A stretch of DNA of 64,000 bases from Liolophura sinensis (taxonomy: Eukaryota; Mollusca; Polyplacophora; Chitonida; Chitonidae): assembly GCF_032854445.1 (NCBI RefSeq), contig NC_088297.1:8357375-8421374 (forward strand), read 5' to 3'. The notes under the pieces were generated by a model. The model did not search any database, was not told the origin of the DNA, and saw nothing but the letters and a program-made list of their open reading frames with translations. Every line of letters begins with the position of its first letter. Position 1 is the stretch's first letter. Both the position numbers and the translations under genes were made by a program. Below, piece by piece: positions 20,801 to 61,485 of this stretch.

Positions 20801-23800
20801 TGGCCCCCCATTATGGTGGGAAAACACCAAGCAAAGCCTGGGGGAAACACACAACCATCCGCCGGTTTCTGCCAGACCTTCCCATGTACGGCCGGAGAGG
20901 AAGCCAGCATGAGCTGGACTTGAGCTCACGGCAACTGCATTGGGATTACAGTATACACCCCTTGCTACATTGTCCCTGATTAAGTGCTTACCTGTACTTA
21001 CAGCTGGCGAAGAAGTCAGCATGAGCTGGACTTGAACTCATAGGGAAAATGCTTGTTAAGGCTCTGAATTTGTCTGTTTTCATGACAACCCTCAATCCTC
21101 AACAAACTTGACAACAAGTACTGTAGGGCATGCTTTGGCATACAAGAGAAATGTTACTTGGCCAGGACAAGTTATTTTATCAGAAAAGAACACATTTTTC
21201 TGACTGACTGATTTATTCCTTCACTTCTTATTCACCAGTAAAATACCATACATGTATACCATACAGAGGTGTACTCTTCAAAATCTAATGAATTTGTCTT
21301 CAAACTGCATCTAAAGTTATTCTTTACTGGTCGAAATTGTTGAGAAGCCAAAGTTAAGCAAAAGTTCTTTTAAAGCAATAAATTGCTAAGGAGTATCTCT
21401 GGGGTAACTCTGATTACTTAAATATACAGTTGCTTTTAGAGATGAGAGAGTTTTACTTCTTACTTTGATCATTTTAACACATTCACAAGCAACGTACGGA
21501 CTGGGATATGTAGCGTGGTAAAAATAAACCTGAGTGAATGGTCTGTGTTTCCTTTTAATACCATGAAAACAGATATGTTTTTATATTTTCTTTGATCAAT
21601 TTGAGAAATTGAAATTTCATCATATCATTTTTTATTTCACTTCAGAACATACCGAAGAAATCTGTATGCGAAAGTTCAGCTCCTTGTTTCCAGCAGATAG
21701 GAGAAGCCTTGAATTATGTTCTGGGTAGTCTGTAAGACAGGGCCTGAACTGTATAAACCCGTAGTACTTCAGGGTGCGGGCAAACCTCAAATACTGCAGA
21801 AAACAACAAGTAGTATTACTGGGGAAGTCTGCAGTTATGTTCTGGGTAGTTTGTAAGGCAGGGCCTGTACTGTATCAACCCGTAGTACTTCAGGGTATGG
21901 CCAAACCTCAAATACTGCAGAAAACAACAAGTAGTATTACTGGGGGAGTCTGGAGTTATGTTCTGGGTAGTCTGTAAGACAGGGCCTGAACTGTATCAAC
22001 CCGTAGTACTTCAGGGTGCGGGCAAACCTCAAATACTGCAGAAAACAACAAGTAGTATTACTGGGGGAGTCTGGAGTTATGTTCTGGGTAGTCTGTAAGA
22101 CAGGGCCTGAACTGTATAAACCCGTAGTACTTCAGGGTGCGGGCAAACCTCAAATACTGCAGAAAACAACAAGTAGTATTACTGGGGAAGTCTGCAGTTA
22201 TGTTCTGGGTAGTTTGTAAGGCAGGGCCTGTACTGTATAAACCCGTAGTACTTCAGGGTATGGCCAAACCTCAAATACTGCAGAAAACAACAAGTAGTAT
22301 TACTGGGGGAGTCTGGAGTTATGTTCTGGGTAGTCTGTAAGACAGGGCCTGAACTGTATCAACCCGTAGTACTTCAGGGTGCGGGCAAACCTCAAATACT
22401 GCAGAAAACAACAAGTAGTATTACTGGGGGAGTCTGGAGTTATGTTCTGGGTAGTCTGTAAGACAGGGCCTGAACTGTATAAACCCGTAGTACTTCAGGG
22501 TGCGGGCAAACCTCAAATACTGCAGAAAACAACAAGTAGTATTACTGGGGGAGTCTGGAGTTATGTTCTGGGTAGTCTGTAAGGCAGGGCCTGAACTGTA
22601 TAAACCCGTAGTACTTCAAGGTGCGGGCAAACCTCAAATACTGCAGAAAACAACAAGTAGTATTACTGGGGGAGTCTGGAGTTATGTTCTGGGTAGTCTG
22701 TAAGACAGGGCCTGAACTGTATAAACCCGTAGTACTTCAGGGTGCGGGAAAACCTCAAATACTGCAGAAAACAACAAGTAGTATTATTGGGGAAGTCTGC
22801 AGTTATGTTCTGGGTAGTCTGTAAGACAGGGCCTGAACTGTATCAACCCGTAGTACTTCAGGGTGCGGGCAAACCTCAAATACTGCAGAAAACAACAAGT
22901 AGTATTACTGGGGAAGTCTGCAGTTATGTTCTGGGTAGTCTGTAAGACAGGGCCTGAACTGTATAAACCCGTAGTACTTCAGGGTGCGGGCAAACCTCAA
23001 ATACTGCAGAAAATAACAAGTAGTATTATTGGGGAAGTCTGCAGTTATGTTCTGGGTAGTCTGTAAGACAGGGCCTGAACTGTATAAACCCGTAGTACTT
23101 CAGGGTGCGGGCAAACCTCAAATACTGCAGACAACAACAAGTAGTATTACTGGGGGAGTCTGGAGTTATGTTCTGGGTAGTCTGTAAGACAGGGCCTGAA
23201 CTGTATAAACCCGTAATACTTCAGGGTGCGGGCAAACCTCAAATACTGCAGAAAACAACAAGTAGTATTACTGGGGAAGTCTGCAGTTATGTTCTGGGTA
23301 GTCTGTAAGGCAGGGCCTGAACTGTATAAATCCGTAGTACTTTAGGGTGCGGGCAAACCTCAAATACTGCAGAAAACAACAAGTAGTATTACTGGGGGAG
23401 TCTGCAGTTATGTTCTGGGTAGTCTGTAAGGCAGGGCCTGAACTGTATAAACCCGTAGTACTTCAGGGTGCGGGCAAACCTCAAATACTGCAGAAAACAA
23501 CAAGTAGTATTACTGGGGGAGTCTGGAGTTATGTTCTGGGTAGTCTGTAAGGCAGGGCCTGAACTGTATAAACCCGTAGTACTTCAGGGTGCGGGCAAAC
23601 CTCAAATACTGCAGAAAACAACAAGTAGTATTACTGGGGGAGTCTGGAGTTATGTTCTGGGTAGTCTGTAAGGCAGGGCCTGTACTGTATAAACCCGTAG
23701 TACTTCAGGGTGTGGCCAAACCTCAAATACTGCAGAAAACAAGTAATGTTACTGGCATCATTATTGGACAATTACACGTTACTGATCGAATACCGGCTGA

Positions 23801-26800
23801 TGTGGACCAGTTCTATTTTTGTGTGGCTCCAAAGGGCGAACAAGTTTGCAACAAAAACACAACAATGTAAAATAGATAGGCAGGAAAGTATGTTATAGTA
23901 ACATATTCACACATTTAACTGGTTTTCCTCAACAATTCCAAGCCCTGGAAAGCCATGTGTCACGATTATTTTCTGGGATGCCAGCTGTGACTTTACAGCT
24001 CTACAGCCACTCCCCCCTGGGTGTCTGGATAACAGCCAGCTGGGCATGGCGAGAATGATTATGGCTTAACGCCACATGGGTAACATTTCAGCCATATCAT
24101 GGTGAGTGGGCATCCGGGGAGGCAAATCTCCTCCATACTGCCATACTCAAGATTAGCTTACTAATATAAAGATGGTAATGTTTATGGCTAAAGCTCAAAC
24201 GAACTCCCAAGAAAACCATCGCTCCACTCCAGGTTTCTGACAATCCGCTTTACTAGCTCAGATAAAACCAGCAGGGCTTGGATTTGAAGCTGCGACCTCT
24301 GTGGTAAAGGGCTTATCTATATCTGGCTTCATCAGCAAATGCTTTGAAATCCCAGGCTGTCGATATCTGATTGTCACAACCTTTACAGAACGCAAGGCGT
24401 GTAATTTGAGCTCCTTAATTCAGGAATTTTTTTTTAATGCAACACATGTGTTATTAGCACACCTAGGCCTTGTTTCAGGAGAGCAATGGCATAGGAGTAT
24501 GATAGCACGCCTAAAGTTTGAAGGCCTAAAATAGGCTTGATTGAATAAAGCAGGAGCCATTTATCATGTAAACTCTAGTAAGAAGACTGCTCCTGCAAGA
24601 AAAGGGGTCAAGATAATTGTGACTTAAAGTTCTCCAGAGTGATGATCTGAACAAACATTGAGGTCATCCAATCAGATTTCTTGAAGTGAAAAGTATAAGA
24701 TTTCATTTATATCATAGGAAAACAACTCAGAATGTGTGAGTGAGTGAGTGAGTGAGTGCTTGGGCTTTAGCATTGTACCTAGCAATTTTTCAGTCATATG
24801 AAGACTAAGGAATCCTTAGAGTGCATGTAATGTGCCTCCTTGTTGCAGGGCGGATTTCAACCGCTCTTTTATCTAGTGCTGCTTCACTGAGACAACTTAC
24901 CGAAGGCATGTAAGCCGCCCCTCCCCAGCCATTATACTGATACATGTACAGGTCAACCAGATGTGGCCAAGTGAGGAAGTTACCACTTGTCTTTTAAAGC
25001 CTTAGGTGTGACTTGACCACATGATTGACCCTGAATCTACCACTCCCGAAGCGGACGCTCTACCAGCTGTGCTATCAGGGCCGGTCAACAACACAGAAGT
25101 GCACACTTCACATTACTAATATCTGCATGATACAAAGTCATCTTTGAGATGTTCTGGGCTCTATTTGACGTCACCTGTTATATTTTGAGCTTTTAGAACA
25201 GGAAGAGAAATCTTTGCCATCAAAATCAGCGGACATTTCTTCTACTAGCTGAACTCCATTAAGAAAATGATTAGTTTTGGGTGTTTTGATCAAATATTAA
25301 ATACTCTCAAAATCCTACTTGCGCTTAAAATTAGCTGATATCCACTAATCAGCTGAAAATTCCTCATCCCTGTTAAAAACAAATGAATAGCTGAACAGGT
25401 TAAAGGGGTACATACATAATCTAGTCACATTAAAAACATCCGCTTCGGGAGCGGTAGATCCAGGATCAATCCTTGATTGAGTCACACCTAAGACTTTAAA
25501 AGAGGAAGTTGTAACTTCCTCACTTGGTGTTCGGCATGAAGGGGATAGTGCAATGACTGGTTGACCCCTATCAGTATAATGGCTCGGGCGGGGCTTACTT
25601 GCCTTCGGTAAGTCGTCTCAGTGAAGCAGCACTAAATAAAAGCGCGGTGGAAATCCGTCCTGCAACAAGGAGGCACATTACACGTACATGCACCCTAAGG
25701 ATTCCTTCGTTGTCACATGACTGAAAAATTGTTGAGTACGACGTTAAACCCTAAGCACTCACTCACTCATTAAAACCATCTCTAGGTTTAGCCAATTATA
25801 CATTTATCTTCATAAAGAACATGATGATGAAAGCTGTTTGGAAATGCTCCAATACTGACCAGTGTGTCAAAACTAGCTCAGACAACCTACCTCACGTTTG
25901 GAACCCTTGACTTGTAATGCAGTTAACTGTTTCAGCTGGTCTTTAGTGGCAAACGTCCACTGGCGCTCGATATCACTCACAGCCTAAAATGGAATGAATG
26001 AATGAATGAGTGATTGTGGCTCAACACCACTTCAGCAATATTTTAGTCGTATCATGGGGAGAACAGCCCGCAATGGAAGGTGGAAACAACAACATCACAC
26101 CTCTTCCTCACTGCCAGGCTGCTGTCTACAAACTGTTTTTATTTGTGGACCATCCACAAGTTGCTGACAGACCCTCATAAATACGGCTGTAGAGGAAGCG
26201 GGCTTGAGCTGGGCTTGAACTCACGGCGACCACATTGGTGGGAGGCTCCTGGGTTATTCTGCCGGGCTGGCGTGCTAACCCACTTGGCCACAGAAGCCCC
26301 CCCCCCAGCTACATAAGAGTTTCAATAAACAAGTACTTCACCTTCAAATGCAAATAAAATTCTGAAGGTTTCCTTCTTTGAAACATTTGAAAGTATTTAC
26401 CCTGATGGATGCAAGATGGATGCTTTTATATTCAGATATTTCTAAACTATTCTCCTTTAATGTGCGTTTAAGCCTCGGACAAATGAACATAATTTTAAAA
26501 TGTCACCAAGGCCCCGCAAGCATCCAGAGCTGGGAAATGTACAAATACACTGCCCGAGGAACAAAAAAATACAGTGTATTATGTCATGCACAGGTAAAAA
26601 GTCTTGTTGACTTACCTGTACATAGAGAAGATTCATAGCAATCCTGTCCTCCAAGAGATCATCATCAAAGGCAGGGTCCCAGTAACTGTGTATTGACAAG
26701 AAAGACAAACTCATACACACTAACACATCAAAGGCGGGGTCCCAGTAACTGTGTATTGACAAGGGAGACAAACTCATACACACTAACACATCAAAGGCAG

Positions 26801-29800
26801 GGTCCCAGTAACTGTGTATTGACAAGAAAGACAAACTCATACACACTAACACATCAAAGGCAGGGTCCCAGTAACTGTGTATTGACAAGGGAGACTAACT
26901 CATACACACTAACACATCAAAGGCAGGGTCCCAGTAACTGTGTATTGACAAGGAAGACTAACTCATACACACTAACACATCAAAGGCAGGGTCCCAGTAA
27001 CTGTGTATTGACAAGGGAGACTAACTCATACACACTAACACATCAAAGGCAGGGTCCCAGTAACTGTGTATTGACAAGGAAGACTAACTCATACACACTA
27101 ACACATCAAAGCTGGGGTCCCAGTAACTGTGTATTGACAAGGGAGACAAACTCATACACACTAACACATCAAAGGCAGGGTCCCAGTAACTGTGTATTGA
27201 CAAGGGAGACTAACTCATACACACTAACACATCAAAGGCAGGGTCCCAGTAACTGTGTATTGACAAGGAAGACTAACTCATACACACTAACACATCAAAG
27301 CTGGGGTCCCAGTAACTGTGTATTGACAAGGAAGACTAACTCATACACACTAACACATCAAAGGCAGGGTCCCAGTAACTGTGTATTGACAAGAAAGACA
27401 AACTCATACACACTAACACATCAAAGGCAGGGTCCCAGTAACTGTGTATTGACAAGGAAGACAAACTCATATACACTAACACATCAAAGGCAGGGTCCCA
27501 GTAACTGTGTATTGACAAGAAAGACAAATTCATACACACTAACACATCAAAGGCGGGGTCCCAGTAACTGTGTATTGACAAGGGAGACAAACTCATACAC
27601 ACTAACACATCAAAGGCGGGGTCCCAGTAACTGTGTATTGACAAGAAAGACAAACTCATACACACTAACACATCAAAGCTGGGGTCCCAGTAACTGTGTA
27701 TTGACAAGAAAGACAAACTCATATACACTAACACATCAAAGCTGGGGTCCCAGTAACTGTGTATTGACAAGGAAGACTAACTCATACACACTAACACATC
27801 AAAGGCAGGGTCCCAGTAACTGTGTATTGACAAGAAAGACAAACTCATACACACTAACACATCAAAGGCGGGGTCCCAGTAACTGTGTATTGACAAGAAA
27901 GACAAACTCATACACACTAACACATCAAAGCTGGGGTCCCAGTAACTGTGTATTGACAAGAAAGACTAACTCATACATACTAACACATCAAAGCTGGGGT
28001 CCCAGTAACTGTGTATTGACAAGGAAGACTAACTCATACACACTAACACATCAAAGGCAGGGTCCCAGTAACTGTGTATTGACAAGGAAGACTAACTCAT
28101 ATACACTAACACATCAAAGCTGGGGTCCCAGTAACTGTGTATTGACAAGGAAGACTAACTCATATACACTAACACATCAAAGCTGGGGTCCCAGTAACTG
28201 TGTATTGACAAGGAAGACAAACTCATGCACACTAACACATCAAAGCTGGGGTCCCAGTAACTGTGTATTGACAAGGAAGACAAACTCATGCACACTAACA
28301 CATCAAAGCTGGGGTCCCAGTAACTGTGTATTGACAAGGAAGACTAACTCATACACACTAACACATCAAAGGCGGGGTCCCAGTAACTGTGTATTGACAA
28401 GGAAGACAAACTCATGCACACTAACACATCAAAGCTGGGGTCCCAGTAACTGTGTATTGACAAGGAAGACAAACTCATGCACACTAACACATCAAAGCTG
28501 GGGTCCCAGTAACTGTGTATTGACAAGGAAGACAAACTCATGCACACTAACACATCAAAGCTGGGGTCCCAGTAACTGTGTATTGACAAGGAAGACTAAC
28601 TCATACACACTAACACATCAAAGGCGGGGTCCCAGTAACTGTGTATTGACAAGGAAGACAAACTCATGCACACTAACACATCAAAGCTGGGGTCCCAGTA
28701 ACTGTGTATTGACAAGGAAGACTAACTCATACACACTAACACATCAAAGGCGGGGTCCCAGTAACTGTGTATTGACAAGGAAGACAAACTCATGCACACT
28801 AACACATCAAAGCTGGGGTCCCAGTAACTGTGTATTGACAAGGAAGACTAACTCATACACACTAACACATCAAAGGCGGGGTCCCAGTAACTGTGTATTG
28901 ACAAGAAAGACAAACTCATATACACTAACACATCAAAGCTGGGGCCCCAGTAACTGTGTATTGACAAGGAAGACAAACTCATACACACTAACACATCAAA
29001 GGCAGGGTCCCAGTAACTGTGTATTGACAAGAAAGACAAACTCATACACACTAACACATCAAAGGCAGGGTCCCAGTAACTGTGTATTGACAAGAAAGAC
29101 AAACTCATACACACTAACACATCAAAGCTGGGGTCCCAGTAACTGTGTATTGACAAGGAAGACAAACTCATATACACTAACACATCAAAGCTGGGGTCCC
29201 AGTAACTGTGTATTGACAAGGAAGACTAACTCATACACATTAACATATCAAAGGCGGGGTCCCAGTAACTGTGTATTGACAAGAAAGACAAACTCATACA
29301 CACTAACACATCAAAGGCAGGGTCCCAGTAACTGTGTATTGACAAGGAAGACTAACTCATACACATTAACACATCAAAGGCAGGGTCCCAGTAACGGTGT
29401 ATTGACAAGAGAGACTAACTCATGCACATTAACACGTCAAAGCTGAGGTCCCAGTAACTGTGTATTGACAAGGAAGGCTAACTCATACACATTAACACAT
29501 CAAAGGCAGGGTCTCAGTAACTGTGTATTGACAAGGGAGACTAACCCATGCACATTAACACGTCAAAGCTGGGGTCCCAGTAACTGTGTATTGACAAGGA
29601 AGACTAACTCATACACACTAACTCGTCAAAGGCAGGGTCCCAGTAACTGTGTATTGACAAGGAAGACTAACTCATACACACTAACACTTTTAAACTGTAT
29701 GACCAACAAAAACTTATCATTATTTTGATTAAAATTTACTTTTTTTATTGGAGTTCTGTCTTGCTGGAGTATTTCCAGTTTTTATAGCCAGCAGCAGTCA

Positions 29801-32800
29801 GGTTTATGGAGAGAATAAACCACTACACCTCGTGACAAAATGCCTGACAAATGTCTTCACATAGAAAATCACACCCAAATAAGCCAGAGCCCCTTTAGCC
29901 AGGGAGAGATAAATAGCAGATAAATAGCTGCAAACAAGGACTGTATTTTAACTATAAATAATAAGGCATTTTAGTCAAATATATGAATATCATACAAAAC
30001 ATATGTAATATGATGATTAACAAATGATTATGTCCCTTTGACAACACAGGACAGGTATTTATACAAATGATGAAAACTCGACACAAGACTGAGAAAAACA
30101 CTTATCTTCCCCAACAAGGTTTCCTCCAAACATAATGCTGCAGCCGTCGTTGTATACGTGAAATATTTTTGAATTTTGCAAAAAACTTCAATCAGATATA
30201 AAAAAAAATTTCCCCACATCCTTTCAAAGGAGAATTTTTTTGCTTTTTTTATTTTTTTTTTTTTTTACCTTTTTCTCAGCACAATACGATGGGAGTCCTC
30301 TTTATTAGCAGCCCTCAGTGAAATGTACGGGGATTCAAACTCCTGAAGCTTGCGGACAACTGAAAACAATACCCATACAAAACATGACAGGCTTTAGTTC
30401 ACAATATTTCAGCTGAGACTGTAAGTCAACAGATTTCTCAGGTGCTAAGCAAATATCAACCGTTAAACCTTCAGTCAAAAGATAAAAGGAAACCAATCAA
30501 TCAATCAATCATTCAACCAGTGAATCACTCATTAGTTAGGTACACGTACATGAACCACAAGTGAAAGATGCTTGACAGGTCCCTTACTCTTGACCAGTAA
30601 GGTCTGAGAAATCTGAGGGGCGTGATCAGCCCAACTCTTACCTGGAGCCCAACAACAACAAGCATGGGTATACTTATATGGGTGATCTGCAGGGAATATT
30701 AATCTGGTAAAGGGTAGTAGTGTAAACCAGACACAAGAGACAGACAGGGAAAGATGCTATACTGGATGTATATGCCCTCCATCAACTTTCCTAAAAGAAA
30801 TGGCTTTGTTCATCTTGAACTCTCTGCTCTAAGACTTACTAGAGTTATCTCCCCCATCTTCCTTCTTCACTAAGTAAAGACCAAAATAGTAAACAAAATC
30901 ATCTGCGAGTTCAATGTGGGAAGCCACATTCTGAAAGGCAAAAAAAAAAAAGTAACAGAAACTTCAATTTCTCTCCAGTGATGAAAAAACAACCTACAAA
31001 GAATATTACATTATAACTAATTGCAGATGGCTATTTCTAGCAGAAATATGATATGGTCAATGACCTTTCAACAAAACAGAGAAAGTGACAAAATTTTATT
31101 CATCATAAAATTGTTATTTGTTATCACTAATGTATTTCTAATTATTACACATCTTCACAGAGCTAGTCCAATTCTTTTATAGCTAAATGATAAGAATCGA
31201 GATAATTTGAAGATTGCTTTCCTAAATCATAACCAATATGGAGATCAACAAAACTTTGTTAACAAGCCTTTAACACCGATAGAGAAACAAAGATAACAAA
31301 TACAGCAGAATGCTGGAGTGAAGTTTGATCACACCTCAAGAACATCCTCAGTCTGGTCAGTAGAGAGTATGTTGACACTGATTTTGTGGCCATTCATCAG
31401 GAAAACGTCCAGTGACACAGCCTCTGGGTCTTCTTGAGCCGTTTCCTAGACAACAGCAACAGACAAATAAATAAATGCCTAAAATAAAATCCTTGATGTA
31501 TAAAAAGATTCCAGAACAATTTTCAGTACTTTTGTACACATGTACCACTAAGTTACCTGTCACCATTTCTTTATTTATTTGTTTGACTTGTGTCTTACGC
31601 CGTACTCAAGAATATTTCACTTATACGAAGGCTGCCAACTTTATGGTGGGAGGAATCCTGGCAGAGCCGAGGGGTAAACCCATGATCATCTGCAGGTTGC
31701 TGCAGACGTTCCAACGTACAGCCAGAGTGGAAGCCACGCATTCGCGAGTGGCACCGGAGACACTGTGCTGTGCTAACCATCTTGGCCACAGAAGCTTTCC
31801 TGTTAGTGTGACCAAGAGACAACATTACTGACACCATAATATTTGCATATCCTATCGCTGAGTAGCCAAGTAACTAATAGAATCCTGTAGACCCCATACA
31901 TGTATGTCTCTTTATCCTGCATCTAACAAGATATCCCAGTCTTCACTGGATGACGATGTTCATCTGGAGGACCTGTATGTTCCTGAATCCTGTAGCCGTG
32001 ACATACGTATCTGTTAACTAGGTTATCTCCCTTTGTTCCACTGTGACAACAATGTGCCAATGTGCCAGTACATGTACATCAGCCCTCCGTGCTGAATTGA
32101 TGAGTCTTTTGCAGGTTAAATTTGTTTCACGGCTACTCGGTGACAGAATAAAGAAATATATGAAGATTACAGACACCACATACCCAAAGTGCATTTTTAG
32201 AGGCAAATAAATGTCACACAATATTATTTCTGCTCCTGACATTTACAATTTTCCATTAGAATACCATCCCAAGTTCCAAACAAACCTCAACACACCTTCC
32301 TAAAATCCACAGAACTCTTAGAATCAGGAAAAAAAATGGGCAAGTTAGTCAAGGAAGAAATCTATGATCATTAAGTGTATTTACATCTCCTGACAATGGG
32401 AAACCACGTAAATAACAGCATCCTGCCAATGAGAAACCACATACATAATAGCATCCTGCCAATGAGAAACCACATAAATAACAGCATGCTGCCAATGAGA
32501 AACCACATACATAATAGCATGCTGCCAATGAGAAACCACTTAAATAATAGCACCCTGCCAATGAGAAACCACGTAAATAACAGCATCCTGCCAATGTGAA
32601 ACCACGTAAATAACAGCATTCTGCCAATGAGAAACCACGTAAATAACAGCATCCTGCCAATGAGAAACCACATACATAATAGCATCCTGCCAATGAGAAA
32701 CCACGTAAATAACAGCATTCTGCCAATGTGAAACCACGTAAATAACAGCATTCTGCCAATGAGAAACCACGTAAATAATAGCATCCTGCCAATGAGAAAC

Positions 32801-35800
32801 CACGTAAATAACAGAACCCTGCCAATGAGAAACCACGTAAATAACAGCATCCTGGCAATGAGAAACCACGTGAACAAGAAACCACATAGATAATAGCATC
32901 CTGCCAATGAGAAACCACATAAATAACAGCATCCTGCAACTGAGTAATGTTGTGCTCCACAAGTGTGCAGCACCTGAGCTCAATACATACAGCACTTTGT
33001 TAAAAAACCACTGACAACATTTTGCTCAACACTGCTTTCCTTGTTATTAGACACCAATGCTCAGGTTATGACATATGTGTATTAAACCTTGCCTGTGCTT
33101 TGTACAGGAGGACTAAACAGGAAGTAATACAGAAAGCTTAAATTTTAATTTCAAATTTAATTCAATTCATTTTGAAAATATAAAACGTATTTTTTTCTAT
33201 TATTATTCTCTTTCACACTAACCTGTTGAGCATTCAGCAAGAATCCATTAAATGTATCACTGCTGCATACTGTGGCATCCTGACTGACTGAAAGAAATAA
33301 AAGAGGAAATATCCTTTGTTGGTGAGAGATCAGCATGAGGAAGTACATATGTAGTTTGTAAACTTGTACAAATATCATACTCTAACAGAATAGAAACCTT
33401 ACTACGTTTGAAATTGGGCTGAAGTGTTTTGCCTGTCTCAACTAACTAGTAAGGGTTTTCGTTAAAATCTAGCTCTTGTTGGTGTGGCTGAAATACTTAA
33501 AATGAATGAATGATTATGGTTTTACGCCACATCGGCAATTTTTCGGCCATATCGTGGCGAGATACTTAAAGTGAAAGAAAACTAAAATCTGAAGTAAAGT
33601 ACAGCATACAGAACACTGTTTCGTTTATTTTTTCAGACATTTTTTTTTATGAGCCATTTTGACAGTACCTAGGAACTCACATCACTTTTTTACCTGATGT
33701 TCACCAGAGGGAAGGAATTTTGTGGAATGTTTTATTCCAACATTCAGTGTCATGATTGGAAAACTTCCTGTGATGTCAGAGTTCCTAAACTCTGATAGTA
33801 TGGTCTTTATTATAAAGCCCACCTATAATTTAAATGTTTGCACACCTTTAACTCTCTTCACAAAAATTTAAATAAAATAAAGTATATTTATGCATAGTTT
33901 TAAGCGTTCAGTGATGCCCACTTCGATTTGTAGAGGTCTTTTCCTTTAAGTCAAAAGGTTCATCACTTGTAAGGAACCTCTCTTGGGCAAAGGGAAGTAG
34001 CTCATGCTGCTGATCTGATAGGGTTTAACATTTGACACTACACGGCAGGCTCTGTTTGCTCTTTAGTGCTTACCTGTACATTTACAAACACACTGTATGT
34101 TACAACATAAAATCAACATACTGTAAATCTTCAACAACTTGGACCTATGAAACACCTTTTTTCAGTAAAATTTATGCACATACAATTATTGTGAGACTTA
34201 GGTTATAAATATGACTTGTATGTGTCACTAAAGAAAGCAAGTTTTATAAAACTGCGCAAATTATTTCTCTACGCTCCACAGTTTGCTAAGAATGTTTCAA
34301 AGTATTGGTTGTAGAGGCGGTTGAAAAGGTTAAAGAATTAAGCTCCTCGTTTCGTTTATCCATAAATACTGACAGTGTTACGGTCCCTTGGCTGTCCTCC
34401 ATTACAACATATACATGTGGTACTTACTTATTTGTATGTAGCGTTCAAGCATCACTCTTCTCTCCTCCAACTGTGAAGAGTTCAATGCCAGCAGCTTCTT
34501 TGGTGGGAAAGGGGGGAGAATGCTACTGCCAAACTCTTTCTTTAGCTGCGGAGAAATTTAACATTCATGTACATGTCCAATGGCATTATGCACTTAATTT
34601 ACACCTTTCTTAGACAAAATTAATGAATTTACATGTACTTGTACTTTCACAAATGTGTACATGTGTAACGGCTGAAGGATTTGACTACATGAGTCACAAG
34701 TGGATTCGAACTCGGGTCTCAGTAGCCAAAGTCCAGTGCTCTATCAACTCAGCTAAAGGGAAAGTCCCACCAGCGTCTGCCAGAATAAGCACTGAAAGGC
34801 TACTCCTGTTACGTTCCTCCCCACTTAAATCCTTCCCCTCTCTAAAGACACACCCATGTTCCCAAGCCCAGAGTGCCACACTTCTTAGTCCAGTTATCTA
34901 CCAACTGAGCCAAAGGGAAAATCCCACTAGCCAAAGTTCTGATACTCTAAGCACAGAAAAGATGCTCCTGTTACACATGGAGATACACATGTAATTATGT
35001 GTGTACACATCCATGTGTTGTTGGTACTTAGCATTGGCTTTTAAGACACATATGTACAGGGTTGACATATATCAGCATGCAGTCTTCTTAAAACTAATAT
35101 ACATGGCACATGTCCTGTAATATTTATTATTTATTTATTTATTTGATTGGTGTTTTACACCGTACTCAAGGATATTTCACTTATACAACAGCAGCCAGTA
35201 TTATGGTGGGTGGAAACCGGGCACAGCCCGAGGGAAACCCACAACCATCCGCAGGTTACTGGAAGACCTTCCCACGTACGGCCGGAGTGGAAGCCAGTGT
35301 GAGCTAGACCAGTCTGATCTTTGCACACTGTATTATGACTGCAGCCAATTACACAAGCACAGTATAGAGACATACACAAAACACTGTGTTCTTTGAAAAA
35401 CTTATTTACAACACATATAAAGTATTCTTCACGATGTATATCTGCCTACTGTAATTCTTCAACCTTTTCACATGTTTGCACAGTGTTGTTTATTCAGGCA
35501 TATCCTGAAGGCATAATTCTGTGTAGACTGATAAAATTACACTTTTTCAAATTGGCCAACCCAACCAATTGTCTCAAAAATCAAAGTCAAAAGGTGCATA
35601 AAATCACAATGAAAGTTGCTCTTTCATATACGTAGAGGTTGAGGGTACACTATATATACAGAGTACATGACAGAGAACAAACACAATAATGGAATGGACA
35701 AACAGAACTAATACCTGTTCATGAAAATGGTGAAATTGTCTGTAGCGGACTGAGCAATGGAAGACTCCATTAATGTGAACATTGAAGCACTGAAAATAAA

Positions 35801-38238
35801 TAAGGGAGAAGTGTAGAACATTGTATTTACACGTTAGACTGACAAGAGTGATATTTTCCAAAGTACATGTACATATCATAGTTTTCCTTTGGGTGTATAT
35901 TAAAATATATCATTCATTTACTCCACTGATTTTTAACACAGTGCTCGGAAATGTTTCACTTACGTGGTGGCAATTAGATTTATTTATATGGGTGGAGGAA
36001 GCCAGAGTACCTGGAGAAAAAGTACCTGGTAACTAACGGTATGCGGCAAGTAACAAGTGCCTAATGGCAAGTAACTAATGGCTTGTGGCAAGTAAGGAAT
36101 GACGTGCGGCAAGTAAGGAAGGGCTTGTGGCAAGTAACTAATGGCTTGGTGCCAGTAACTAATGGCTTGTGGCAAGTAACTAATGGCTTGTGGCGAGTTA
36201 CTCACAAACTTTCCCATGTGTGACACACAGATTTTTGCCTACAAAGTGAGCTCATGGTGAAAACTTTGAATACAAGCCAAAAATCTACCACAAACTTTGT
36301 ACATCATCACTTGAAAAGTCTCACATGTAAAAACATTGTCAATGGCTGGTACAAGGCTAGTCAACCACATACTGCAGAAAATGTCCTGAGAAAACTTTAG
36401 GCGGGGAAATCTTGAGGAGTCATTGTCCACCCTTTGGACTGAACCAGCACTTTGCACATCCGAGCAATTGAATTCTTTGAATGTACATGTGCATGTAAAT
36501 TGTTTTGCAAAAAACACGACTTGTCCTTTGTGCAGTATATACATTTTTTATAACATATCTCTCTTTTTTTTTGTTTTTTTGTCATTCAGTTTTGTATGAG
36601 AGACAGATTTTTAACGTAAGTGATACAGTATTCACATCAATGAAGTTGTTTCATACTAAAAACTAATCCAAGTGGCATATACAAATATTCCTCAACCAAC
36701 AGTTAGCGTAATCGGACTAGTTAACAAAAAAACCACCATCAACAAGATACTGATTCAACATGTCACCTCACACATGTACCCACACAAAGGAGTGTTTTCA
36801 TAAATGTCTCACACCTATTTTCAGGTCCAATGTTTTCATCCTGCATCTATGTTTAATGTTTTGAACACTCACTGCAGCATAGTCACAGTGAAGGTCCAGA
36901 ATGTCAGCAGCGCATAGTAAAGCTCTATCTAATATCCTCATTACGCACTCATGGCATCATTTGATTTATTTATCTGATTGTTCCTTAATGCCATAATCAA
37001 CTTTTTTCACTTTTTACACGAATGCTGTCGGTTTTATGGGTAATGTGAAGCAGAGCAAACCAGTAACTGTCCTCTGTCCAGGTACTGACAAACTTTCCCA
37101 CAAGTGACCTACACAAATGCATACCATCATCGATCCAACGCCCCACAAGCAGTAAGAATGGATAAATGTGCCAATTCCCAGTCCGAGGCTAGGTTTGAAC
37201 CCGCACCTTGTGTGTCCTAGTGATACATGCAGATCGATTCTCGATTCTCACAGTTCTCACCCACTGACAATGGTTGTGTAGCCATTTGCATAGTACATAT
37301 GTTGAAGACCATTTCGTCTTGTTCTTTGTCAGTGTGACGTGTGCATACATAAAGTATCTGTTTGTCAGTGTGATGTGTGCATACATAAAGTATCTGTTTG
37401 TCAGTGTGACGTGTGCATACATAAAGTATCTGTTTGTCATATGAGGGATGACAGGGCTTTACTGTTAACGAGAATCTGGGAATCGGATTCTTGCAATGAC
37501 TCCTGTAAACCAAATTTACGGGAATCTGCTTGGATTCCCGTAAGAAAGTCATCAAAATAACTTTCAAATTGACCAAATGGTCTCAAATTTCTAGTTGATA
37601 ACTATACCTCCTCTCAACAAGTGGACATACGACAGTATACATCTCCATAATGCACCTTTCGTTCAATACCTATTTTGCATGGATTTATCATAAAGTAACT
37701 GACAAATAATGAAAATATAGTGATATTTCAGTAACCTGGCATCCCCAAAGCTGTTTAGTTTTGCATACCACATATTATAACTTTCACTTGGAGTAACTGC
37801 ATACTTTGTGGTAATTGATTTCACCTAGTTTTTAGTGGATTCCCGCAAAGCAAACCTATGGGAACCCATTTAGATTCTGGTAAAGAATTACCAAAATAAA
37901 GGCCTGGAAGGTTTGTCAGTATTGATATGATTGGTCAGTTTTTTATGCCGGGCTCTTCTGTTTCCTAAACTCATGAAAGTGACTGTCATCATGTCAGTGG
38001 AAAATTCTTAAGTACGTCTTCAAACAAAATCAAATAAAAAAATCATAGATCTGTACTTGTAAATTGGTTGTAATACTGTCTTTGTGGCATTGAGCCCTAA
38101 TTACTCATCCATTCATATATGTTCTGGGTCTACATGTAATTTTCTAAACATGAGAAATTTGATATAGGCCTAACTTACTGTATAAGTCGTTCCATTTTCA
38201 TCCTTGGATTCCTGTGTATCTGGTATAGAGAAATGCAT
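11739..38238 (-). CDS. SNX17: Sorting nexin 17 (SNX17), 16 exons, complete
   Basis: Endosomal cargo adaptor. SNX17 binds PI3P through its PX domain and NPxY/NxxY tails of receptors and integrins through its FERM-like module, and hands them to Retriever/Commander for recycling (known for the family). Sixteen exons with GT-AG borders and matching phases join to 1422 bases, 473 residues plus stop; human SNX17 has 470. Residues 1-106 are the PX domain, with the phosphoinositide-binding arginine in SVRYRQFHHFHEQ (R35), PPFPPKK at 56-62 and ERRVMLERYIQ. Residues ~107-392 are the FERM-like F1-F3 part, including SYWDPAFDDDLLED, YLRFARTLKYYG, FRITRMRCWRIT and LEIAFEYLVAKDTLKWIT. The tail ends FEGIGDDDL, matching the Retriever-binding end of vertebrate SNX17. 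The gene is divergent from AK2. Oddity: exons 8 and 10 each seeded a large minisatellite that multiplies the acceptor. Confidence 0.96.
12300..12666 (-). repeat. SINE family B, full length
   Basis: On the minus strand a tRNA-like head (GGCCGAGATAGCACAGTTGG, then GTAGAGTGTCC) leads to a body with AAGAGGAAGTTGTAACTTC, and the tail ends in a CACTCACTCACTGACTG run. Box-B-like bases sit near 12605. In SNX17 intron 15. Confidence 0.8.
12820..13078 (+). repeat. SINE family A, full length
   Basis: Head GGGGCCTCCATGACCTGGTG, B-box GAGTTCAAGTCC, the GTCGTGGGTATTCCCC body and the AATATTTTTGAGTACAGCG tail ending in AAATAAATAG. Directly follows a family B copy. Confidence 0.85.
13241..13263. repeat. (ATT)n microsatellite
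   Basis: Seven uninterrupted ATT units just downstream of the exon 15 donor (minus strand). Confidence 0.9.
13289..13342 (-). CDS. SNX17: SNX17 exon 15
   Basis: Residues 425-442: SDDHSAITKAVDSMKKIS. Acceptor TTTTACAG, donor GTGAGC. In phase with exons 14 and 16. Confidence 0.87.
13725..13885 (-). repeat. SINE family A, head-truncated
   Basis: Tail and body in reverse (GACTGGTGTTTTACGCTGTA to CAGACCTTCCCACC). The tRNA-like head is missing here. Confidence 0.8.
14785..14900 (-). repeat. SINE family A, head only
   Basis: Reverse-oriented head with GAACTCACAGCGACCGCATT and GAGAGGCTCCTGAGTCATTA. It could be the other part of the copy at 13.7 kb, split by an insertion. Confidence 0.7.
15728..15978 (-). 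repeat. SINE family A, full length
   Basis: Reverse copy from TGATAGGTGTTTTATGCCC to the head near GACCACTCGG. The SNX17 intron is interrupted only by repeats here. Confidence 0.8.
16401..16496 (-). CDS. SNX17: SNX17 exon 14
   Basis: Residues 393-424, a polar Ser/Lys-rich tail segment (KGSKYSYLKKNASS). Weakly conserved, accepted on phase, splice sites and position. Confidence 0.85.
16755..16950 (+). repeat. Dispersed repeat with CTCAACYTTTT ends, copy 1
   Basis: Shares ATTCTGTGTATACTGATAAA, TTGGCCAATCCAACCAAT and GAAAGTTGTTCTTTCATATG with sequences at 35.45 kb and, inverted, at 48.43 and 60.35 kb. The family is not named. Confidence 0.5.
18161..18238 (-). CDS. SNX17: SNX17 exon 13
   Basis: Residues 367-392: AILISMCLQSMVDELIMKKQ, then basic residues. 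Matches the end of the F3 lobe. Acceptor CTCCACAG, donor GTAAGC. Confidence 0.95.
18640..18998 (-). repeat. SINE family B, full length
   Basis: Reverse copy with TGAGTGAGTAAGTGGGTGCT at the tail, GAAGTTACAACTTCCTCTTT in the body and CTCTACCAACTGTGCTATCC in the head. In SNX17 intron 12. Confidence 0.8.
19552..19671 (-). CDS. SNX17: SNX17 exon 12
   Basis: Residues 327-366: a serine-rich linker, then KLEIAFEYLVAKDTLKWITV. Acceptor TTTCTAG, donor GTTTGT. Confidence 0.95.
20642..20704 (-). CDS. SNX17: SNX17 exon 11
   Basis: Residues 306-326: DQVKEGSFRITRMRCWRITT plus A. This is a highly conserved stretch of the family's F3 lobe. Acceptor TTTTCAG, donor GTAAGT. Confidence 0.95.
20728..20950 (-). 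repeat. SINE family A, nearly full
   Basis: Begins with eight TTTA units. The body reads CCATTATGGTGGGAAAACACC and the head ends at GGCAACTGCATTGG. Lies between SNX17 exons 11 and 10. Confidence 0.8.
21653..21793 (-). CDS. SNX17: SNX17 exon 10
   Basis: Residues 259-305: YLRFARTLKYYGFIQFRP, then TDYPEHN, LLLSAGNKELNF and IQISS before GTATGT. Acceptor TTTTCTGCAG. The acceptor and roughly the first 90 bases recur 16 times upstream at 121-bp spacing. Only this copy runs on into LLLSAGNKELNF. Confidence 0.95.
21712..23752. repeat. 121-bp minisatellite made from SNX17 exon 10 and its acceptor, 17 copies
   Basis: On the minus strand each unit is a 3' splice site (TTGTTTTCTGCAG), about 90 bases of exon 10 (YLRFARTLKYYGFIQFRP, TDYPEHNSRL) and then GTAATACTACTTG. 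Exon edges fall at 21793 and every 121 bases up to 23729. The lowest copy is the real exon and the other 16 stop at an in-frame TAA after about 32 codons. Copies differ by a few bases (GTAAGACAG/GTAAGGCAG, GGGAAGTCTGCAG/GGGGAGTCTGGAG). Confidence 0.97.
24040..24310. repeat. SINE-like repeat, family C
   Basis: TTATGGCTTAACGCCACATG and TTTCAGCCATATCATGGTGA match the family seen at 33.5, 50.45 and 26.0 kb (ATGAATGATTATGG..., ACGCCACATCGGCAA). The right end has GGATTTGAAGCTGCGACCTC, a box-B-like segment in reverse. Confidence 0.55.
24733..25088 (-). repeat. SINE family B, full length
   Basis: GTGAGTGAGTGAGTGAGTGC tail, CTCTTTTATCTAGTGCTGCT body and CGCTCTACCAGCTGTGCTAT head. In SNX17 intron 9. 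Confidence 0.8.
25437..25770 (+). repeat. SINE family B, opposite orientation
   Basis: Head piece CGCTTCGGGAGCGGTAGATC, body GAAGTTGTAACTTCCTCACT, tail ACTCACTCACTCATT. With the copy at 24.7 kb it forms a large inverted pair about 350 bases apart, which could fold in the SNX17 pre-mRNA. Confidence 0.8.
25891..25983 (-). CDS. SNX17: SNX17 exon 9
   Basis: Residues 228-258: AVSDIERQWTFATKDQLKQL, then TALQVKGSKRE. Acceptor ATTTTAG, donor GTAGGT. Confidence 0.94.
25990..26305 (-). repeat. Chimeric SINE (family C tail, family A head)
   Basis: Left part ATGAATGAATGAGTGATTGT and AGCAATATTTTAGTCGTATC belong to family C. The right part (GAACTCACGGCGACCACATT to GGCCACAGAAGCCCC) is the family A head. 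Confidence 0.6.
26616..26685 (-). CDS. SNX17: SNX17 exon 8
   Basis: Residues 204-227: SYWDPAFDDDLLED, then MNLLYVQ. The first 23 bases and the acceptor (CAATACACAG) are repeated 47 more times upstream in the intron. Only this copy continues into the full exon and its GTAAGT donor. Confidence 0.95.
26663..29690. repeat. 63-bp minisatellite made from SNX17 exon 8 and its acceptor, 48 copies
   Basis: On the minus strand each unit holds a pyrimidine tract (TTTGTCTTTCTTGTC), the acceptor AATACACAG and 23 bases of exon 8 (TTACTGGGACCCTGCC...). Exon edges lie at 26685 and every 63 bases to 29646, with no length change in 47 steps. Copies vary at a few sites (GGCAGG/GGCGGG/GCTGGG, AAGAAAGACAAA/AAGGAAGACTAA), in patterns that suggest higher-order blocks. 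The period is 21 codons, so long open frames appear on both strands by default, including one of 917 codons on the plus strand. Confidence 0.98.
30112..30205 (+). repeat. SINE family A tail fragment
   Basis: TTTCCTCCAAACATAATGCT followed by GCCGTCGTTGTATACGTGAA. Diverged. Confidence 0.55.
30269..30359 (-). CDS. SNX17: SNX17 exon 7
   Basis: Residues 174-203 plus two bases: VRKLQEFESPYISL, then HRIVLRK. Donor GTAAAA sits in a long A-rich tract and is followed by the intron that holds the 63-bp array. Confidence 0.93.
30840..30930 (-). CDS. SNX17: SNX17 exon 6
   Basis: Residues 144-173 plus one base: ELADDFVYYFGLYLVKKEDG, the F1 lobe. Acceptor TTTCAG, donor GTAAGT. Confidence 0.94.
31335..31445 (-). 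CDS. SNX17: SNX17 exon 5
   Basis: Residues 107-143, start of the FERM-like F1 lobe: VSLDVFLMNG, then NILSTDQTEDVLE. Acceptor GTCTAG, donor GTGTGA (a weaker site). Confidence 0.94.
31563..31800 (-). repeat. SINE family A, diverged full copy
   Basis: TTTATTTGTTTGACTTGTGT tail, CTTTATGGTGGGAGGAATCC body, head ending CTTGGCCACAGAAGC. In SNX17 intron 4. Confidence 0.75.
32390..32945. repeat. 33-bp minisatellite, about 16 copies
   Basis: Units of CATCCTGCCAATGAGAAACC plus ACGTAAATAACAG with A/G, C/T and one-base variants. Lies in SNX17 intron 4. Unlike the 63- and 121-bp arrays it contains no SNX17 exon sequence. Its 11-codon period explains the long minus-strand open frames here. Confidence 0.93.
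33223..33287 (-). CDS. SNX17: SNX17 exon 4
   Basis: Residues 85-106, ending SSDTFNGFLLNAQQ, which matches the end of the family PX domain. Acceptor CTTTCAG, donor GTTAGT. Confidence 0.95.
33498..33565. repeat. SINE-like family C fragment
   Basis: GAATGAATGATTATGGTTTT and ACGCCACATCGGCAATTTTT, then GCCATATCGTGGCGAG. Confidence 0.6.
34428..34545 (-). CDS. SNX17: SNX17 exon 3
   Basis: Residues 46-84 plus one base. LKKEFG, LPPFPPKKLLAL and LEERRVMLERYIQI cover the PX proline loop and final helix. Acceptor CTCCGCAG, donor GTAAGT. Confidence 0.95.
34640..34975 (-). repeat. Two tRNA-head-like repeats in tandem
   Basis: The minus strand carries GAGTTCGAATCC (about 34710). Two related segments (TCAACTCAGCTAAAGGGAAA and CCAACTGAGCCAAAGGGAAA) are about 160 bases apart. 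Probably a duplicated, diverged tRNA-derived SINE head and not a tRNA gene. Confidence 0.4.
35125..35310 (-). repeat. SINE family A, head-truncated
   Basis: TTTATTTGATTGGTGTTTTA tail, TATTATGGTGGGTGGAAACC body, ending near GGAAGCCAGTGTGAGC. Confidence 0.8.
35455..35645 (+). repeat. Dispersed repeat with CTCAACYTTTT ends, copy 2
   Basis: TTCTTCAACCTTTTCACATG at the left and AGAGGTTGAGGG at the right form weak inverted ends. The interior CTGTGTAGACTGATAAAATT is shared with the 16.8 and 48.4 kb copies. Confidence 0.5.
35715..35789 (-). CDS. SNX17: SNX17 exon 2
   Basis: Residues 21-45, phase 0-0. Contains VHINGVFHCSVRYRQFHHF, the PX core strand with the arginine expected to contact PI3P. Acceptor TTTTCAG, donor GTATTA. 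Confidence 0.95.
36026..36200. repeat. 21-bp tandem repeat, about eight copies
   Basis: Units of TGGCAAGTAACTAATGGCTTG with variants (AAGGAATGACGTGCGG). In SNX17 intron 1. Confidence 0.85.
36960..37225 (-). repeat. SINE-like repeat with tRNA-like head
   Basis: The left end TTTATTTATCTGATTGTTCC resembles a SINE tail. The right end carries GGTTTGAACCCGCACC, a B-box in reverse. The interior is unlike families A and B. Confidence 0.45.
37328..37440. repeat. 36-bp tandem repeat, three copies
   Basis: GTCAGTGTGAYGTGTGCATA plus CATAAAGTATCTGTTT repeated three times with one base change. Confidence 0.9.
38179..38238 (-). CDS. SNX17: SNX17 exon 1 (coding part)
   Basis: Residues 1-20, from MHFSIPDTQESKDENG to TTYT, then GTAAGT. 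MHFSIP is the conserved family start, which fixes the ATG at 38238. Confidence 0.95.
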
Positions 38239-38779
38239 CTTCCCGAATCACAGGATTCTCCTAAATTGTCTGCAACTACAATTAACTTATCATACACAGG
38301 CAATTCTGTCACATTTTTTTTTAAATCAACAGTTTTGCGCTGGTAAGAAAGGTTGATGGCTGAGTGATGTGCAATGTATATTACTGACAGTACACTCCCC
38401 TTTTTTCGAACTGCCTCGTTGACTCCAATTTTCGGAAACTTTCGCAACTTGAATTTCAGCCTTCCTCCTCCTCACTCACGAATGCTTGCTGTCAGCTTCA
38501 CCAACTGAGCTCAGCTGCAAATCAGTATGTTCCTTGACCTCAGCAAAATAATCTCCATAGGCTTTTTTTTTAACAGCATGAACTCTCACACGCCTTACTG
38601 TACAACATGAGATTTTGACATCTTAACCCGGAAGTGAATCCTCAATGACCGGAAAGCTATAACGGTAGGGGAGTTCAGTTCTGCGCATGCCCCATAGGTA
38701 CCTAGTTTCACTGCAACGTGTTTGGCTTCTTTTTCATTTTAACCCGTTTTTACCTTTGAGCTACTTGCATTTTAACATC
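38239..38779. promoter_or_regulatory. Divergent SNX17/AK2 promoter
   Basis: 541 bases separate the two start codons, so both 5' untranslated regions and the promoter(s) lie here. CCGGAAGTG at 38628-38636 is a strong ETS-family (GABP-type) core. TGCGCATGC at 38682-38690 matches most of the NRF-1 palindrome. Both factors are known to drive nuclear genes for mitochondrial proteins, which suits AK2. No TATA box was seen near either expected start. Transcription starts are not visible. Confidence 0.6.
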
Positions 38780-52309
<13,530 letters not shown>

Positions 52310-55052: not shown

Positions 55053-55469
55053 AAAACAAAAAAGCTTAAACTTCCGTGAAAACTGGGAAATTTTCATTTT
55101 GCATTTAATGGACATGTACAGAATCTTCAGATTTGCGAGAATTTATGAAGCAAAATACAGATATATGTATTTATATATATATAAATGATCTGATGTAAAA
55201 AATACACGTACAGTACAGGAGATATACATGTTTTTTTTTTTCTGACATGACTGTACAAGCTCTGAATTGTTCATCTTGAGTTTTTCAGAGTAGACAATGT
55301 ATGGGTCTTGTTTTGTTTTATTATACAATGTACTCATGTTTCAGCTGTAAGTATATGTTGTGTGTTTTTTGTCATGATGGATTGAATGATAGATTACATT
55401 ACTATGTTTGAAATTAATTGATTTTCTTTAAATGTGCAGATTCAAAAAAATTTGTTAATTTTTTTACAG

Positions 55470-55515
55470 GCACCAATGCTGGCAGAAAAATACTGTGTCT
55501 GCCATCTGTCCACAG
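55470..55515 (+). CDS. AK2: AK2 exon 2, second copy
   Basis: Same 15 residues as at 43651, with one silent change (TCA to TCC). Acceptor and donor kept. Confidence 0.9.
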
Positions 55516-56679
55516 GTAAGATTTTTTAAAATATTGAATAATTTACCAGTAAAAAAAAAATAGTATAAAATAAGTTTATAAATACTTTTTCTTTACACCG
55601 TGTGCACACAATTGTTTTGAAACTAATGTTGGATGACTAGCCATCCTTTATATATACAGGTGAAAATGACACAAAATCCCCAACAGTAAAGCATTGTTTG
55701 TTAGGGTGAGGGGGATGTGTGTCATGACTGTCAGAATTCCAACATGGGGAAACTTTCCAGTTGGGTAAAAAGATTTGTCATCTACATGTATGTCCGGTAC
55801 AACAGTTAGCTGAAATTCTTTTTTTTTTCAACAGGAAAAAGAAAAAAAAAATTCGATGTAATAGAAAAGAAAAACAATGAATAAAAAATCAGGAAACTTA
55901 GTGTTCAAGAAATTAAGTGGCTTAAAGCGTGTAGTAGGAAATAAGTATCGCAAAGGCTCAGCGATACATGTTGATTTTGCTACAGAAATATATGTGTACA
56001 TGTATTTTCTACATTTTTACTCCGTTTATATCAAATTAAACTATTGTGCTGCTTACATTACATTTTTTCTTTGGTATCATTTGAGAATATACTCATTACT
56101 GTGCATGCAGTACCAACTGTCAGCATAATAATGATGGCTTTAGGGGTTTCCCGTGACATCATCACCTTGGCAGAACAATAGCCAGGTAGCATGTTGGAGG
56201 TCTGTTAACATGGACTGGTATAGCCATAGTACTCCAATATGACTATCAAAAGTAGGTCACACAACCCCTCTATGTACATAATTTAACACACCAGAAAGGG
56301 AACATATGCTTATGTGCCATGTGACTGATTTATGACAAAATAGGTATGTCAGCACTTATGGTGCTAAATATTTACATACATACAGGTGGACAAACATCTC
56401 TGACTTTTTTAAAAACTGAAACAAGGCTAGAGTGCTGCATAAGGACATAAACATTGTAGTACACACACATGTACATGTGTAAAATGGATGTACAGTATCT
56501 TGACACTGTTTACACAGATGTTTTCCACTTACCTGTAACTTTGCGGTTGCTCCCAGCCTCTTAAACATTGTGTACAGTATGCTAATACAAGCTCTATTCC
56601 CCCAGCCGGTTTTGGCATAACAAGGGACATACATGTAAAACATTTGTTGTGTTGATGTTTACTTGTACAAGCTTATTTT

Positions 56680-56850
56680 ATCTGTTTATTTGACTGGTGT
56701 TTTATGCTGTACTCAAGAATATTTCACTTTTACAACGGCGGCCAGCATTATGGTGGGAGGAAACTGGGCAGAGCCCGGGAGAAACCCACAACCATCCGCA
56801 GGTTAGTGACAGACCTTCACACTTGTACGGCCGGATGTACAAGTTTGGGC
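56680..56850 (-). repeat. SINE family A, second copy of the one at 44.9 kb
   Basis: Same insertion as at 44862 but with a single GACAGACCTTCACAC segment in place of four. Confidence 0.85.
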
Positions 56851-57482
56851 CTGCTCAACATTTTTTTGGCCATATCAAAATGGCTCCTAACATAATGCAG
56901 ATAATTTGTGTAAATTTATTGAAACCCGACTGATACAAGTGACAAGTATAGTATGTACACTGTACTTGGCCTCTTTTTTTAGATTCAGTCAGTTTATAGT
57001 CAAGATTTTTTTAAAAGTCAGACTTATCTGAGGATTGAACCAAGGTCATCCAGTTACAATGTACATCCGATTAGATACCATACATAGGAATACATGTAAA
57101 GCCATCGACTTCAAGTTTGTCAGATGGGGCACTATCAGTCAGGTGTGCTTGATGAAGGTTGGTGGTTTATTCCAGGCAATAAGGTTTCCTCCAGGCACTA
57201 CGGTTTCCTCAATCCACAATCTTGAACACAGTCCTATAAATATACATGCATGTAAGTGAAAAATTCAAGTTTAAGTTTTTTGGAAGAGGAAAAATAGTGC
57301 CCACAGTAAAGTAACAAACTTTGCTAGGTATACATGCAGACCTCTGTGTTAAGCAACAGTCATAGGACAAGTGCACATGCATGTAGCGAGATTGTGAGTC
57401 TAACCTACGTGTACAATCCAACGTGACGGGCATCTCATTGGATACGGTTTACTCAGCGGCTTTAGCCACATGATTGAGCTAA

Positions 57483-59900
<2,418 letters not shown>

Positions 59901-60042
59901 TTAACCTCAGGGACAGGGATCTTAGTCTGGGTATATCTCCCCACCCCCACACCCTAGCCCTGTGGATGTGGATGAAGACCTAAAAATTCAACCACATAAA
60001 CAGCATTTTTGGAGGCAAATAAATAAGGTGAGAGGGGACTCT

Positions 60043-60150
60043 GTGACCGAGAGGGCTAGTACACCAGCGTGGCATAATGACCAAGGAGCCTCTCAATAAT
60101 GCGGACTTGTGAGCTCAAGTCCAGCCCATGCTGGCTTCCTCTCAAACAAG
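60043..60150 (+). repeat. SINE family A head fragment (second copy)
   Basis: Counterpart of 47860-47965. Confidence 0.65.
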
Positions 60151-60354
60151 ACAGGTAAAAGTCTTCTTAACAAGGAGAGGTCATTATCCCAGTAAAGACA
60201 AACTCAGCCTGTATTTCCCCCAGGGAAATTTGTGTCAGCACACAAACTGGTGGGGAGTCCTGCACCCCACCAGAGCTTGTTAAGAGTTAAGGCCATCATG
60301 AAAAACATGTTTGTTGAGGGTAACCCTCAAATCACTTTAGCATGACTACTTTAG

Positions 60355-60520
60355 TTCCTCAACCTTTTCACATATTAAAAAGCAAGTTTCCGTGACATTT
60401 TAGGACTTTCTTAATTTGATTTTGCAGACAGAATTGCATCAAATGGGTTGGTCAACTTCAGGGCTTGACAAAACGTATAATTTTATCAGTCTACAGAGGA
60501 GCATGCCCTCAGAATAAGTT
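60355..60520 (-). repeat. Dispersed repeat with CTCAACYTTTT ends (second copy)
   Basis: Counterpart of 48430-48600. Confidence 0.5.
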
Positions 60521-60699
60521 TAAATAAACACCTTGCACAAACCTGTAAACAGTTTTTAAGTTGAACTACATAAATGACAGACTATACACTTTTTTTTACT
60601 TTACTTCAAAAGTTAAAATATTTTTTATGTGGTAGTTTTGTCCAGTACCATACAATAGGCCCCCTGTCAAAGCCTATTTGGTGCAGGCAGTTATTCTTT

Positions 60700-61072
60700 T
60701 CCTGTTGCTCAATGCGGTCCGCCGTGAGTTCAAGTCCAGGTGGCTTCCTCTCCTGCCATAGTTGGAAAGGTCTTTCAGCAACCTGCAGATGGTTGTGGGT
60801 TTCAACAAGTTCGCTCGGTGTCTTCCCACCATAATACTGGCCACTGCCATATAAGTGAGTACAAAGATGACACAAATCAAATAAATGTGTTCAAGTCCAT
60901 CTCATACTGTCTTCATCTTCGGCCATATGTGGGAAGGTCTGCCAGCAACCTGTAGATGGTTGTGAGTTTCCCCCGGGCTCTGCCTGGTTTTCCTCCCACC
61001 ATAATGTTGGCTGCCATTGTATGAGTGAAATATTCTTGGGTACGATGGAGAACACCAATCAAATAAATAAAT
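60700..61072 (+). repeat. Two adjacent SINE family A copies (second copy)
   Basis: Counterpart of 48786-49155, with small indels. Confidence 0.8.
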
Positions 61073-61318
61073 ATGAGATACTACTTCTGGTGCTAAAGTT
61101 ACCCGACCATCTAAACACCGCTTAAACCAACAGAACTCCCAGAAGCTGGAAAAATGAACTTATCATGGAGGAAATGTTAGGTCATGTAGATCAGCTCACT
61201 TTCACTATTTATGGTATACATTCTATAATTATATGTGTATGTATAAGGTACCGAAAGGTTTGGTAACTTTCCCACAGTAATTTGCCGTACCATTCATCAT
61301 TGTGATTTTTCTCATCAG

Positions 61319-61485
61319 CTGGATAACTGTTAGAGAGGCGTAAACCCCGCTGGATGCTGTCATAGAGTTTGCCCTTGACGATTCACTGCTGACCAATCGT
61401 ATCACGGGACGGAGAATCCACGTTCCCTAGCGGTCGCTCATACCACATTGAATTCAACCCTCCTAAAGTTGAAGGCATGGATGAT
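61319..61485 (+). pseudogene. AK2: AK2 exon 4, second copy, frame broken
   Basis: 167 instead of 168 bases: AACTGTTAG for AACTTGTTAG, CGTAAACCCC for CGTAAAACCCC, and GTTCCCTAGC for GTTCCTAGC. All three are in or beside short runs, as expected from sequencing error. Confidence 0.85.

Follow-up and report, generated by a model that had tools for sequence, protein, structure and literature searches.

Minisatellites spanning exon/intron boundaries in SNX17 and other genes of the chiton Liolophura

In the chiton Liolophura, the acceptor of exon 8 of the sorting nexin gene SNX17 is repeated, together with the start of the exon, in an uninterrupted minisatellite of 48 copies, and arrays of the same anatomy are found at another SNX17 exon, at an exon of the neighbouring gene and at exon edges sampled elsewhere in the genome, which suggests that such boundary arrays are common in this animal and not a one-off. 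They quite probably represent minisatellites seeded across an exon edge and tolerated because exon definition favours the splice site nearest to its partner on the other side of the exon. The window analysed here is a stretch of 64,000 nucleotides; its minus-strand gene is SNX17 and its plus-strand neighbour is taken by us to be AK2 (adenylate kinase 2). The features under discussion are the following (a slash marks an exon/intron boundary):

21653..21793, minus strand: SNX17 exon 10, true acceptor CTGCAG/TATTTGAGG
21714..23742, minus strand: array 2, at the exon 10 acceptor, 121-bp unit x 16.8 (TRF)
26616..26685, minus strand: SNX17 exon 8, 70 nt long, with its true acceptor before 26685 and the donor CAG/GTAAGT
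26663..29687, minus strand: array 1, in which 47 decoy sites, 46 with AG, lie upstream of the true acceptor
30269..30359, minus strand: SNX17 exon 7, donor AAG/GTAAAA
45753..45947, plus strand: presumed AK2 exon, ending ...FPRTVAQAE, donor GCG/GTAAGT; its start is that of a tblastn match, not a mapped acceptor
45877..47782, plus strand: array 3, 134-bp then 142-bp units made of the AK2 exon end and donor, downstream of the true donor
57510..59956, plus strand: the AK2 exon with donor-side arrays for a second time, within the tandem segmental duplicate

The identity of the minus-strand gene, proposed in a preliminary description of this DNA, is borne out by its hand-joined exon peptides, which match the PDB entries 4tkn, 4gxb and 3lui, all carrying the name Sorting nexin-17, with a best E of 3.7e-92. 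Exon 7 ends AAAAAG/GTAAAA at 30269 and its joining to exon 8 yields the conserved LRKSYWD, the alignment with the PDB chains running gapless through the junction; the intervening intron 7 measures 3,583 nt, about 3.0 kb of which is array 1. TRF reports 26663-29687 as a single array of period 63 with 48.0 copies, 94% matches, 0% indels and a score of 5091, and on the gene strand 48 of 48 units are exactly 63 bp long with zero length change, each composed of 40 nt of intron end and 23 nt of exon 8 start, so that the unit, copy number and constancy of length first described all hold. The intron part ends AATACACAG in 47 of the 48 units, copy 44 reading CACCG; the 47 look-alike acceptors of the preliminary description thus comprise 46 that keep AG and one that does not. 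The exon part begins TTACTGGGACCC in most copies. Chance is not an issue for this array because its 48 copies are equal in length, and a query made from it had no match in the genome DNA outside array 1 among the best-scoring candidates. The TRF copy number of 48.0 also implies that the founding duplication probably had about 1 bp of common sequence at its ends. Across the array runs a 935-aa open frame on the plus strand (26639-29446), which could mislead gene prediction; it was rejected as evidence of a gene, as a 63-bp unit free of stops explains the frame.

Array 1 contains 26 distinct units among its 48, with a mean pairwise identity of 93.7%; with regard to homogenisation by tandem-repeat turnover, units two steps apart resemble each other more than in shuffled order (a likeness reached in 1 of 2000 shuffles), while at lags 1 and 3 the likeness is weak (reached in 81 and 79 of 2000 shuffles), these figures coming from one haplotype. 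This diversity bears on the possibility that the assembler over-expanded a few tandem copies. The depth of the Liolophura japonica assembly, built from PacBio HiFi reads, is only 14x, which speaks for an artefact of this kind; set against this are the differences between units, the presence of arrays at unrelated exons and a mean read length of 8,347 bp, well above the 3 kb of the array (passages covered of PMC11068029). An invented 3-kb array is unlikely given HiFi assembly, and over-expansion as the explanation is considered extremely improbable.

The preliminary description did not mention the arrays at exon 10 and in AK2, which lie in the same window, and its interpretation is supported in part. 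Array 2 comprises 17 acceptors counting the true one, all with AG; the true exon 10 and the decoys can still be aligned by eye where the repeated stretch of exon reaches its far end, and the first four differences between exon 10 and the commonest unit type fall, again by eye, at third codon positions. Between exons 4 and 5 of SNX17, 33-bp arrays (14.7 and 2.1 copies by TRF, 32388-32944) are confined to the intron as far as seen. SNX17 and AK2 lie head to head at 38235-38783, their starts about 0.5 kb apart, an arrangement that suggests a common promoter, and a 199-aa open frame at 40667-41266 resembles, by eye, a Tc1/mariner-type transposase. The AK2 region from exon 2 onward is present as a tandem segmental duplication (43648-52306 and 55467-64000, offset 11.7-11.9 kb), the second duplicate extending past the end of the window and each copy carrying donor-side arrays; two long stretches are 92% and 95% identical, a divergence beyond the 1.24% heterozygosity given in the passages covered of PMC11068029.

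The frequency of such arrays was estimated on exon loci drawn from the genome (609,464,459 bases in 632 contigs), in which, as a separate matter, eight molluscan haemocyanin domains stand in a row. The sample consists of 142 exon loci with Ras or mitochondrial-carrier (Mito_carr) matches, 103 for Ras (25 + 78) among the 150 matches listed and 39 for Mito_carr among the 80 listed, both lists being confined to candidates that received a score; loci were taken in score order, some long matches, same-frame neighbours and the lowest-scoring matches being left out, and Pkinase and AAA matches stand outside this sample. Three loci of 145 (L050, L103 and L107) had been dropped before the count for having two matches in one stretch, and six of the 142, with two stops in the match, were kept. 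An edge was testable only where it interrupted the domain, and a boundary array was defined by a period of at least 20, a score of at least 80 and an array end inside the exon. Boundary arrays occur at 7 of 185 testable edges, or 3.8% (95% interval 1.5-7.6), in 6 of the 142 loci; 34 of the 185 edges rest on weak splice calls (score <5), and flanks of 400 bp mean that arrays further out are under-counted. All seven were read by eye, two among 104 acceptors (L120, L115) and five among 81 donors (L133, L056, L064, L023, L115). In longer cuts, 26 units were aligned at the L064 array (L147) and 22 at the L120 array (L148). Locus L115 (G000:C10:4936705-4937729) is a mitochondrial-carrier exon with both an acceptor array (56 bp) and a donor array (74 bp); in its longer cut, L149, AG has been lost from 6 of the 15 acceptor copies that aligned (4 AT, 2 AC). 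Several candidates were not counted: L022, a divergent array beside a weakly called acceptor; L110/L151, in which the intron end is repeated and the exon is not; and L100, L077 and L098, whose arrays begin 12-40 nt inside the intron. No array lay wholly inside a sampled match at the same thresholds (period of at least 20, score of at least 80). If other genes carry boundary arrays at an equal rate and intron numbers are typical of animals, the genome would hold thousands of them.

As to how the arrays arise, one proposal is that tandem duplication is triggered by the splice sites, with RNA-DNA hybrids or a fixed motif as conceivable causes, which would turn exon edges into hotspots. Three separate edges are struck within one 64-kb window, and L115 carries arrays at both edges of one sampled exon, as expected of hotspots; yet the interior of the exon has no greater density of array ends than the adjoining intron: the first 102 bp of the exon hold 8 (the doubtful L022 among them), the first 100 bp of the intron another 8 and the stretch from 100 to 200 bp again 8, a comparison made on few arrays. 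Four more ends lie at 200-300 bp and one beyond, a drop-off due at least partly to the 400-bp flanks. Exon edges thus look neither preferred nor avoided by array ends, provided that the copies lie in the intron, and a hotspot is regarded as improbable. In the seeding model favoured here, short tandem duplications would be about as dense in introns as over their edges, and the founding duplication would be one that happens to straddle an exon/intron boundary; the array would then expand through slippage or unequal exchange. With a duplicated segment that spans an acceptor, every extra copy would fall on the intron side, so that the coding sequence would be left intact.

What such an array confronts the splicing machinery with can be gauged from the scores of its sites. 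The decoy acceptors of array 1 score 5.2-6.6, save for one without AG, and the true acceptor 6.6; the choice among them therefore hardly rests on the site itself. By comparison, the true exon 8 donor scores 12.8 and the two best donors within array 1 score 4.9 and 3.4; the best donor in array 2 scores 3.4 against 5.8 for the true one. The decoy acceptors of SNX17 are thus without an adequate donor of their own, and those of array 1 could define an exon only via the real exon 8 donor, which is nearest to the true acceptor. A lack of partners does not serve as a general rule, however, as the AK2 array contains acceptor-like sites scoring 6.6.

Nor is there any general constraint on decoy splice sites. 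In 11 pooled arrays, 33 of 135 splice-core columns are variable against 206 of 860 other columns (p 0.91), the two AK2 arrays in this pool (AK2a and AK2b) being duplicates of each other and L023 being read one base out of phase (dinucleotides GG). AG is kept in 94 of 101 aligned copies of four acceptor arrays and GT in 54 of 61 copies of six donor arrays, true copies included where aligned; L023 is absent from the latter count, its GT being readable in 5 of 5 units. Constraint seemed present in array 1 when taken by itself, its core varying less than the remainder (1 of 18 columns against 16 of 45), and is absent from the pool.

These figures also weigh on the proposal that the decoys are functional, serving as a splicing switch through which acceptors 2-4 would insert 21 aa into SNX17 isoforms, or as a source of unproductive transcripts that would tune the level of the gene. 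The nearly invariant acceptor core of array 1 and decoy scores close to that of the true site speak for it, and so does a 63-bp unit that is a multiple of three: use of acceptors 2, 3 and 4, the nearest to exon 8, would lengthen the protein in frame and without a stop by 21, 42 and 63 aa. However, stops would be brought in by 44 of the 47 decoys, the pooled cores are without constraint and the alignment with the PDB chains of SNX17 crosses the exon 7-8 junction without a gap. Exon 10 is moreover organised alike although its 121-bp unit is no multiple of three, and a frame-preserving unit was for this reason rejected as a sign of function. A function of the decoys is accordingly held to be quite improbable.

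Tolerance of the arrays would instead follow from exon definition, the splicing machinery picking the copy nearest to the other splice site of the real exon, and the wrong products of most decoys, which carry stops, would be removed by nonsense-mediated decay. In SNX17 an exon-proximal choice of acceptor is likely, and the conserved protein points to the last acceptor as the one that the spliceosome would use. Human data show a preference for the sites closest to each other across the exon where flanking introns are large; between acceptors of equal strength, an upstream preference is significantly reduced under exon definition and, in the figures described, not reversed (passages covered of PMC9225289). 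Exon definition as known from human would therefore not fully explain how one site prevails over 46 intact competitors. A bolder reading, which we advance only tentatively and consider rather doubtful, is that near-identical splice sites compete naturally at thousands of places in the genome, that these contests obey a strict exon-proximal rule, acceptors included, stronger than human data indicate, and that boundary minisatellites then spread at nearly no cost, continuing to lengthen introns and to provide raw material for new exons.

Minisatellites that duplicate an exon/intron boundary have a name, contrary to the statement of the preliminary description that no standard feature class exists for them: such "mirages" are known from the Adh3, TnC, globin and PGBD5 genes of amphioxus (PMC3087553, PMC3902484, in the passages covered). 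Array 1 displays two of their marks, a unit that spans the boundary in 48 copies and an AG kept in 47 of 48, and the chiton arrays can be classed as mirages on their defining anatomy. In the papers found, as far as their covered passages go, reports of mirages have so far concerned individual lancelet genes; should several percent of exon edges in a chiton carry them, they would be what minisatellite turnover generally leads to in some animal genomes. They constitute natural large-scale tests of spliceosome choice among near-identical sites as well as a pitfall for gene prediction and for the mapping of reads.

Other systems bear a partial resemblance to the chiton arrays. Human IFI6 (6-16) reportedly contains a minisatellite that repeats the splice site at an exon end and creates multiple donor sites; its unit is short and concerns donors only, unlike the chiton arrays. 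A study in C. elegans is said to have linked intronic minisatellites to alternative splicing. In Rogers-type models (cited in the covered part of PMC3087553), introns are gained via tandem duplication of segments with splice signals; the duplicate there creates a new intron, whereas a chiton array merely lengthens an existing one. Earthworm genes carry first-intron repeats, boundary duplication being unmentioned in the passages covered of PMC12783039.

The closest likeness thus lies with amphioxus, as described in the covered parts of PMC3087553 and PMC3902484. In both animals a minisatellite-like tandem duplication extends over the exon/intron boundary, on acceptor and donor sides, and AG or GT is kept in many copies; amphioxus units, those of the globins BflGb6 and BflGb9 among them, range from 10 to about 160 bp. 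Splicing has been examined in amphioxus, where mirages seem to leave it undisturbed according to data on Adh3 and RT-PCR of globins (PMC3087553). Copy number reaches 48 in the chiton, by comparison with 6 and 3 in BflGb6 haplotypes, and recurrence was measured at 7 of 185 sampled edges in the chiton, whereas amphioxus mirages are reported gene by gene. In the open literature searched, the only boundary minisatellites recognised are those of amphioxus (PMC3087553, PMC3902484). The chiton being a mollusc and hence of another phylum, the present arrays bring mirages, as far as that literature goes, to a new phylum, in higher copy number than in the globins and at a frequency that has been measured.
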